This document shows positions 48,828 to 50,339 of a stretch of 64,000 bases of DNA, piece after piece. The DNA lies in contig NZ_JBBYXK010000001.1 of the NCBI RefSeq assembly GCF_039655875.1, positions 682,001 to 746,000 of the forward strand, written 5' to 3'. Positions within the stretch are counted from its first letter, which is position 1; each line of letters starts with the position of its first letter. The position numbers and the translations under genes are program-made. The notes under the pieces are model-generated. The model saw only the letters and a program-made list of their open reading frames with translations. It was not told the origin of the DNA and made no database searches. The stretch is from Emcibacter sp. SYSU 3D8. Lineage in GTDB: Bacteria > Pseudomonadota > Alphaproteobacteria > SMXS01.

Positions 48828-48868
48828 TCAAAAATAGGCCATGTGCGGGAAATGGAGTGTCCGGAAGC

Positions 48869-48957
48869 TCCTTCCCTTCGCCGGCATGACCCGGATCAGG
48901 TTCGAAGGGTTTGCGCGGCTCTTCCCCGCGTCCTCTCAGCCCTGCGGGCACCCCTGG
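48869..48957 (-). promoter_or_regulatory. TPP riboswitch (THI-box) upstream of thiC
   Basis: Read on the minus strand, the region holds GGGGTGCCCGCAGGGCTGAGA and then AACCCTTCGAACCTGATCC and GGGTCATGCCGGCGAAGGG, the conserved core of the THI element. The aptamer ends about 57 nt before the thiC ATG. TPP binding would be expected to hide the ribosome site or cause premature termination. Outer boundaries are approximate. Confidence 0.95.
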
Positions 48958-49064
48958 AACGAGCCCACTATGTGACCCAAACCCCCGCCACGTCAACCGG
49001 CACCGGAAGACCCAGGTCGATTCCGGACTTGCCGCCGCGCTGATTCAGATATATCTGTTTATTA

Positions 49065-49098
49065 GTTATAACGAATATATCGTTATATCTATAACGAT
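49065..49098 (+). promoter_or_regulatory. Double palindromic operator before the PadR gene
   Basis: Two overlapping perfect inverted repeats lie in the AT-rich leader: TATAACGA-ATATA-TCGTTATA (49067-49087) and ATCGTTATA-TC-TATAACGAT (49079-49098). The half-site TATAACGA therefore occurs three times in alternating orientation. The site is just upstream of the start codon, so binding would block transcription or translation. Autoregulation by the PadR/NfeR-like product is inferred from position. Confidence 0.75.
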
Positions 49099-49108
49099 GA
49101 GGATCCAG

Positions 49109-49726
49109 ATGCACCATCACTTCAAGGACGCCCTGTTCGGCCGGTCGCACGCACGCGGCATGCGCCATGGCCAGCGGGAGGACCGTCAGGAGGCCATGCG
49201 CCGCGGCGGCGGCCGGATCGGCCGGTTCCTGGCCCACGGCGACCTGCGCTTCCTGCTGCTCAAGCTGATTTCGGAAAAGCCGAGTCATGGCTACGAGCTG
49301 ATCAAGGAGATCGAGGACCGGGTCGCCGGCGCCTACACGCCCAGTCCCGGCGTAATCTACCCCACCCTCACCCTGCTCGAGGAACTGGGCTGGGCGCGCG
49401 TGGCCCGGAGCGAGGGCACGAAGAAATTGTTCGAGGTCACGGCGGACGGCCTGCTGGCAATCGAGGCCAACAAGGCCACCGTCGACGATATTTTTGCGCG
49501 CATGGACAGGGCCCATGCCGAAAGGGAAGCCCAGCCGGCGGAAGCAGAAGGCGATGTCGCCGCCTTCTGGAAGCACCGCCACCGCCACCGTGAGATGCGC
49601 AACGCCCTGCACGAATTGCGCGATGCCTTGCGTCACCGGGCGTTCGAGCGTGCGCTCGACGAGTCCCAGGTGGACAGCATCGTCGACATCATCCGCACCG
49701 CAACCAAACAGATCCGCGGCGCCTGA
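49109..49726 (+). CDS. PadR-family regulator, NfeR/YqjI-like (metal responsive)
   Basis: 205 residues. A His/Arg-rich N-terminal extension of about 40 residues (MHHHFKDALFGRSHARG...) precedes the PadR winged helix: HGDLRFLLLKLISEKPSHGY, then AGAYTPSPGVIYPTLTLLEE. The C-terminal dimerisation helix carries WKHRHRHREM. This layout matches YqjI (NfeR) of E. coli, a Ni/Fe-responsive repressor. ATG 49109 is chosen with GAGG 6 nt upstream; ATG 49097 lies inside the palindrome. It is cotranscribed with DUF2218, 11 bp downstream. Confidence 0.85.
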   Translation: MHHHFKDALFGRSHARGMRHGQREDRQEAMRRGGGRIGRFLAHGDLRFLLLKLISEKPSHGYELIKEIEDRVAGAYTPSPGVIYPTLTLLEELGWARVARSEGTKKLFEVTADGLLAIEANKATVDDIFARMDRAHAEREAQPAEAEGDVAAFWKHRHRHREMRNALHELRDALRHRAFERALDESQVDSIVDIIRTATKQIRGA

Positions 49727-49737
49727 AGGAGAACCAC

Positions 49738-50022
49738 ATGACCCGGTCCAGCGCGACGATCGAAACCGAATTTGCCAGCCGTTACCTGCAGCAACTCTGC
49801 AAACACTTCGCACACAAGATACCGGTCGAGTTCTCGAAGACCGCGGGCCGTATGGAATTCGAGGGCAACACCTGTCTGCTGGAGGCCGATCAGAAGGCGC
49901 TGACCATCTCCATCCAGGCGGCCGACGCCGATATCAACAGAAGGCTGCAGGATGTCATCGTGCGCCACCTCGACCGCTTCGCGTTTCGCGACAGGCCGGA
50001 GGTGCGCTGGAAGGCCGGTTAA
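49738..50022 (+). CDS. DUF2218 family protein
   Basis: 94 residues, the full length of the DUF2218 family: SSATIETEFASRYLQQLCKH at the start and QDVIVRHLDRFAFR near the end. The fold is a small alpha/beta protein and its function is unknown. In many proteobacteria these genes lie beside siderophore-interacting or ferric-reductase genes, which points to iron metabolism. Here it follows the PadR gene by 11 bp with GGAGAA before the ATG. Confidence 0.85.
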   Translation: MTRSSATIETEFASRYLQQLCKHFAHKIPVEFSKTAGRMEFEGNTCLLEADQKALTISIQAADADINRRLQDVIVRHLDRFAFRDRPEVRWKAG

Positions 50023-50144
50023 TCCCGGCAATCTTCGGGAGGGATCGGTTGCAGATGAATTCAATTCAAAGTTGAAATATCCATTGAATGAGGCGAAGGC
50101 CGGCGATATTGTGGCGAAAGTAAGATCAACACAGAGTGGATCCC

Positions 50145-50339
50145 ATGACCGCGCACCTCGCCAATCATCCCGGAACCGTGAACCTGTTCGCCCGGCGCAC
50201 CCGCGGGGAATTGGTGGAGATGCTCGTCCGGGCTCACCGCAACGGCGACTCGGGCATGACTGAGACCTGCAACGCGGAGCTCGACCAGCGTACGCGGCAA
50301 TACCGTGACTCCGGCCGGGCGGCCCTCGGTCCGCGCTAG
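50145..50339 (+). CDS. Small protein of unknown function
   Basis: 64 residues, charged, with LFARRTRGELVEMLVRAHR and RQYRDSGRAALG, probably two amphipathic helices. The ATG is at 50145, with a GTG at 50136 as an alternative; the ribosome site is weak. It lies 122 bp after DUF2218. No family recognised. Confidence 0.45.
   Translation: MTAHLANHPGTVNLFARRTRGELVEMLVRAHRNGDSGMTETCNAELDQRTRQYRDSGRAALGPR

Follow-up and report, generated by a model that had tools for sequence, protein, structure and literature searches.

A predicted NfeR-type PadR-DUF2218 operon and its putative box array in Emcibacter sp. SYSU 3D8

The closest described system is the NfeR/YqjI-NfeF/YqjH pair of E. coli and Klebsiella. 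In Klebsiella, nfeF is derepressed when NfeR is lost, and nickel has been reported to relieve NfeR repression in E. coli (PMC7981267). In the 64,000-nt stretch of DNA analysed here (the window), we find a PadR gene that resembles this system in its PadR fold, its His-bearing tail, its iron-linked partner and the GATATATC box in the regulator's own promoter, a box that E. coli also carries in the effector promoter. Kinship extends beyond the helix-turn-helix: over 156 residues the protein is 35% identical to E. coli NfeR (2e-26). The arrangement differs, however, since DUF2218 lies downstream in one operon where E. coli has a divergent ferric reductase, the tail is shorter than that of E. coli NfeR and free of Cys, and the boxes stand in tandem at 17 bp. 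We consider it likely that the locus is an autoregulated, metal-responsive operon of the NfeR type, with DUF2218 as the iron-handling effector.

Table 1. Positions of the features of the locus in the window.
Feature	Position	Strand	Details
TPP riboswitch before thiC	48855-48965	-	68.6 bits
Sigma-70-type promoter (likely)	49029..49057	+	TTGCCG 49029-49034, 17 bp, TATCTG 49052-49057; overlaps box 1
NfeR box 1, perfect palindrome CAGATATATCTG	49046..49057		core GATATATC 49048-49055; conserved, putative family operator
Degenerate NfeR box 2, GTTATAAC (6/8)	49065..49072		17 bp after box 1; covers most of first TATAACGA
TATAACGA / TCGTTATA / TATAACGA palindromes	49067..49097		not conserved as such
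Additional off-register match AATATATC (7/8)	49074..49081		kept in same-genus species
Degenerate NfeR box 3, GTTATATC (7/8)	49082..49089		34 bp after box 1
NfeR-type PadR repressor gene	49109..49726	+	205 aa; PF03551 3.1e-15
NfeR-type PadR protein, layout			disordered His-bearing N-terminal tail; winged helix ~45-120; then C-terminal helices
DUF2218 gene, probable effector	49738..50022	+	94 aa; PF09981 1.2e-31

The regulator and its operon

The PadR and DUF2218 genes form a compact two-gene operon on the + strand, with 11 bp between them, situated between a divergent thiC with its riboswitch and an mtnA-like region. Both domain assignments of the preliminary description hold, and the DUF2218 match is full-length at 109.4 bits against a curated cut-off of 29.1. 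The most likely start of PadR is the ATG at 49109, which we prefer to the in-frame ATG at 49097 because a GAGG Shine-Dalgarno sequence (49099-49102) lies 6 nt upstream and the resulting N-terminal length equals that of the same-genus orthologue.

In the AF2 model, tail residues 1-37 mostly have a pLDDT below 50 and the domain lies above 90. The gene had been described as His-rich, which is true to a modest degree: six His precede residue 44 and Cys is absent, compared with a stretch of E. coli NfeR in which 12 His and 7 Cys were counted, and the HHH of the window tail is lost in the same-genus orthologue. We counted this tail as His-rich all the same. A second His cluster, KHRHRHRE at residues ~155-162, is present in both the window protein and the same-genus orthologue. 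On a quick PadR tree with many weak branches, these two proteins form a long branch away from enteric NfeR, and we therefore use "NfeR-type" for a common fold, tail and operator, not for orthology. In this sense the kinship with NfeR/YqjI proposed earlier is borne out, both by the identity to E. coli NfeR and by the same operator core. The ferric reductase had been noted as absent, and a search of the whole 4.07-Mb genome found no FAD_binding_9 (NfeF-type reductase) gene. The place of a neighbouring NfeF (FAD_binding_9/SIP) gene is taken by DUF2218. As the NfeF neighbour is missing here and is not universal among relatives (28 of ~111 loci), the locus was filed as NfeR-type and not as NfeR-NfeF.

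In a number of Enterobacter loci (L111, L116, L118, L119, L123, L126, L131-L133, L136 and L139) the NfeR tail, with starts chosen by rule, looks short and has ~2 His, unlike that of E. coli NfeR. Even within the enterobacteria, the way a His-rich tail senses nickel may vary.

A conserved leader box and its tandem copies

The most informative element of the leader, which the preliminary description missed, is the perfect palindrome CAGATATATCTG. Its core AGATATATCT is found a single time in the 4.07-Mb genome, at this palindrome, and twice in the E. coli nfeF-nfeR intergenic region, with one copy before each gene. Of 111 NfeR-like PadR genes, E. coli included, 100 have the box GATATATC upstream, in most cases 200-400 nt ahead of the HTH core, and it occurs at no other place within +/-1.5 kb. 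The box recurs across Proteobacteria; because the set includes close relatives, such as the Enterobacter loci, the counts do not stand for independent events. The box is found at 29/30 DUF2218-paired, 29/29 NfeF-type and 42/52 solitary loci, and most leaders without an exact copy bear 7/8 copies, several with a spacing of 17 bp. A search of 385 whole alphaproteobacterial genomes for the tandem form GATATATC-N9-GATATATC is less biased and gave seven matches, every one just upstream of an independently found PadR gene. The broad 16-mer WTTHGATATATCDAAW also matches genomes, for the most part small, in which no such PadR occurs, so that a single box lacks specificity there and the tandem form is specific. 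From position and conservation, we predict that GATATATC is the operator bound by the window PadR and that it corresponds to the sites footprinted for NfeR. An exact GATATATC was found within ~1.5 kb of none of 13 isolated DUF2218 genes, which indicates that the box goes with PadR and not with DUF2218; control of those genes in trans by the box was rejected on this ground. We likewise rejected other targets in the genome, where AGATATATCT is found only at this locus and the best degenerate match elsewhere (contig C4) lies inside an unrelated gene.

Box 1 begins an array. The three positions GATATATC (49048), GTTATAAC (49065) and GTTATATC (49082) together give 21/24 matches, a score reached by 0/5000 dinucleotide shuffles, and at box 2 TTAGTTATAACGAA differs from TTMGATATATCKAA by at most two mismatches. 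Tandem boxes at 17 bp are frequent in the family, with 20 exact pairs among the leaders; a second box of at least 6/8 stands at offset 17 in 31 leaders, compared with at most six at any other offset from 9 to 39. In the same-genus species (L062) all four array positions of the window recur, with GATGTATC at the box 3 site (L062:4546). In that species one more exact GATATATC (L062:4474-4481) precedes box 1 by 38 bp. In 55 of 100 leaders a TTG precedes the first box by 18-21 bp, with three or fewer at any other offset, and given this spacing box 1 would overlap the -10 element while boxes 2 and 3 would cover the transcript start. The predicted overlap, a geometry drawn from promoter consensus, fits repression by occlusion.

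The preliminary description had instead placed the operator in two overlapping palindromes built from TATAACGA. The half-sites and palindromes are present as described (49067-49074 on the + strand, 49080-49087 on the - strand and 49090-49097 on the + strand, with 0.2 expected in the whole window), one palindrome having perfect 9-bp arms with a 2-bp loop and the other perfect 8-bp arms with a 5-bp loop. When the AT-rich leader was shuffled with dinucleotides kept, some 8-mer occurred three times in 1.9% of shuffles. However, no TATAACGA palindrome was found in the leaders of other relatives, and the same-genus species keeps box 1 exactly and has TATATCGA, closer to the box consensus, in place of TATAACGA. 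With homologous leaders lacking the palindromes, the claim fails and TATAACGA was rejected as a family operator; the box common to the leaders is GATATATC, itself a palindrome. The suggestion that two dimers bind side by side is lost in the TATAACGA register and survives in another, in which up to three boxes follow one another in 17-bp steps. The TATAACGA palindromes are largely degenerate box copies 2 and 3 at the 17-bp period of the family: the first palindrome reflects the mirror symmetry between these two boxes, with its centre midway between them, and the second, centred at 49088.5 and outside the 17-bp register, may be incidental.

DUF2218 and other partners of NfeR-like genes

DUF2218 had been presented as the partner of the regulator, and the adjacency recurs. 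Among 385 alphaproteobacterial genomes, 48 (a hand count from the table) have a PadR match at E<=1e-13, and in 19 of the 48, spread over 11 families, DUF2218 directly follows PadR on the same strand, including one pair (G148) whose DUF2218 match is below the curated cut-off. In the wider set of ~111 loci the partner is DUF2218 in 30 and NfeF in 28-29, with neither in ~52-53; since roughly every second NfeR-like PadR gene is solitary, DUF2218 is not obligatory. These partner labels switch at least 21 times across the PadR tree, the weak branches of which also bear on this number. We found no common further partner for the solitary genes except a ferredoxin in the same-genus species L062 (G005), where PadR is ~75% identical, the thiC synteny is the same, no DUF2218 lies near PadR, and a 2[4Fe-4S] ferredoxin gene (L062:4570-4869) sits between the NfeR-box leader and PadR. 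Another same-genus genome, G002 (L002), has the PadR-DUF2218 pair with its PadR on a different branch from that of the window, and the genus may thus have gained the pair on more than one occasion.

The AF2 model of DUF2218 has a pLDDT of 96, and its best fold match is 2jpi (PA4090 of P. aeruginosa, TM 0.84), deposited as a hypothetical protein, which has the same fold and keeps the Cys/His set. Near-invariance of C21, H23, H26 and H77 among relatives suggests a metal or heme site; W91 is near-invariant as well. Three links point to iron, from which we infer the function: isolated DUF2218 genes adjoin TonB receptor, Peripla_BP_2 (periplasmic binding protein) and FecCD permease genes in siderophore and heme uptake clusters; DUF2218 is fused to reductases; and DUF2218 genes are contained in the methylolanthanin and rhodopetrobactin loci (PMC11317620). 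As to the fusions, eight of the eight DUF2218-positive frames of 345-410 aa that were taken out carry NfeF-type reductase domains, five confirmed by Pfam, and the fused copies retain C21/H23/H26/H77 only partly. The window copy differs from these settings in lying under an NfeR-type regulator. A possible model for metal or heme binding by DUF2218 is the DRI domain (DUF2470; Dri1, HugZ, ChuZ), which is small, has three conserved His, occurs in SIP-domain fusions and lies near iron genes (PMC11014987). This is an analogy only; Pfam gave no DUF2470 match up to E=5 in 42 relatives and the DRI/DUF2470 fold was not among the 50 best fold matches of DUF2218, so with kinship detected in neither sequence nor fold we rejected homology.

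Readings of the locus

We propose that PadR dimers would bind the array of self-palindromic boxes, GATATATC and its weaker copies in 17-bp steps, and that the bound array, overlapping the -10 region and the transcript start, would repress padR and DUF2218 together. Excess Ni2+ or Fe2+ on the His-bearing tail would, by analogy with NfeR, release the repressor, and the derepressed DUF2218, a small cytosolic protein, would then help to handle imported iron in a job connected with that of NfeF in E. coli. The DNA itself shows the families of both genes, the conserved box with its exclusive link to this type of PadR, the array and its geometry relative to the predicted promoter, the operon layout, and the ties of DUF2218 to iron uptake through fusions and neighbourhoods; binding by PadR, the metal signal and the role of DUF2218 are deduced from these and from NfeR. 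Against it we count the modest, Cys-free tail, the non-conserved HHH, the solitary PadR genes, the long branch and the imperfect boxes 2 and 3.

PadR proteins sense varied ligands. The regulator could thus be autoregulated through GATATATC and sense something other than nickel or iron, such as another metal, heme, redox state or an organic ligand, with DUF2218 still serving iron uptake; the window tail is poor in metal ligands, and the same-genus ferredoxin partner is compatible with redox or Fe-S stress. Operator and family identity close to NfeR, together with partners that are repeatedly iron-related, make this unlikely in our view. That the TATAACGA palindromes form a second, separate operator beside the GATATATC box, used by another regulator or as a lineage-specific mode of PadR, we regard as quite improbable. 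In its favour are the three exact half-sites in alternating orientation, three such 8-bp inverted repeats arising in 0.14% of shuffles, and ATCGTTATATCTATAACGAT, a nearly perfect palindrome of 20 bp whose centre falls 3 bp off box 3, but every other leader lacks the TATAACGA palindromes, TATATCGA in the same genus shifts toward the box consensus, and two of the three half-sites match the 17-bp spacing at which tandem boxes stand in the family. It is harder still to credit DUF2218 as a passive hitchhiker or chance neighbour with no functional link: half of the PadR relatives, L062 among them, do without it, yet chance adjacency would be ~1e-4 per genome against the 19 same-strand pairs in 11 families, and the pair recurs at scattered positions on the PadR tree.

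The NfeR-type operon that we favour would widen the range of a regulator known from enterobacteria to include many alphaproteobacteria and give its operator a conserved sequence that is specific genome-wide. It would also place DUF2218 in iron handling via operon, fusion and uptake clusters as three independent links, making the metal response and the function of DUF2218 directly testable. Speculating further, and with somewhat more doubt than conviction, we suggest a proteobacteria-wide NfeR-type switch, marked by GATATATC often in tandem at 17 bp, with NfeF, DUF2218 and 2[4Fe-4S] ferredoxin as interchangeable effectors, in which DUF2218 may bind metal or heme as a partner in ferric-siderophore reduction and be able to replace the reductase arm of the NfeR response.

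Downstream of the operon, the window holds a short open reading frame (50136-50339, 67 aa, no Pfam match), and the same-genus species has an evident counterpart of it after its own PadR (L062:5623-5817).
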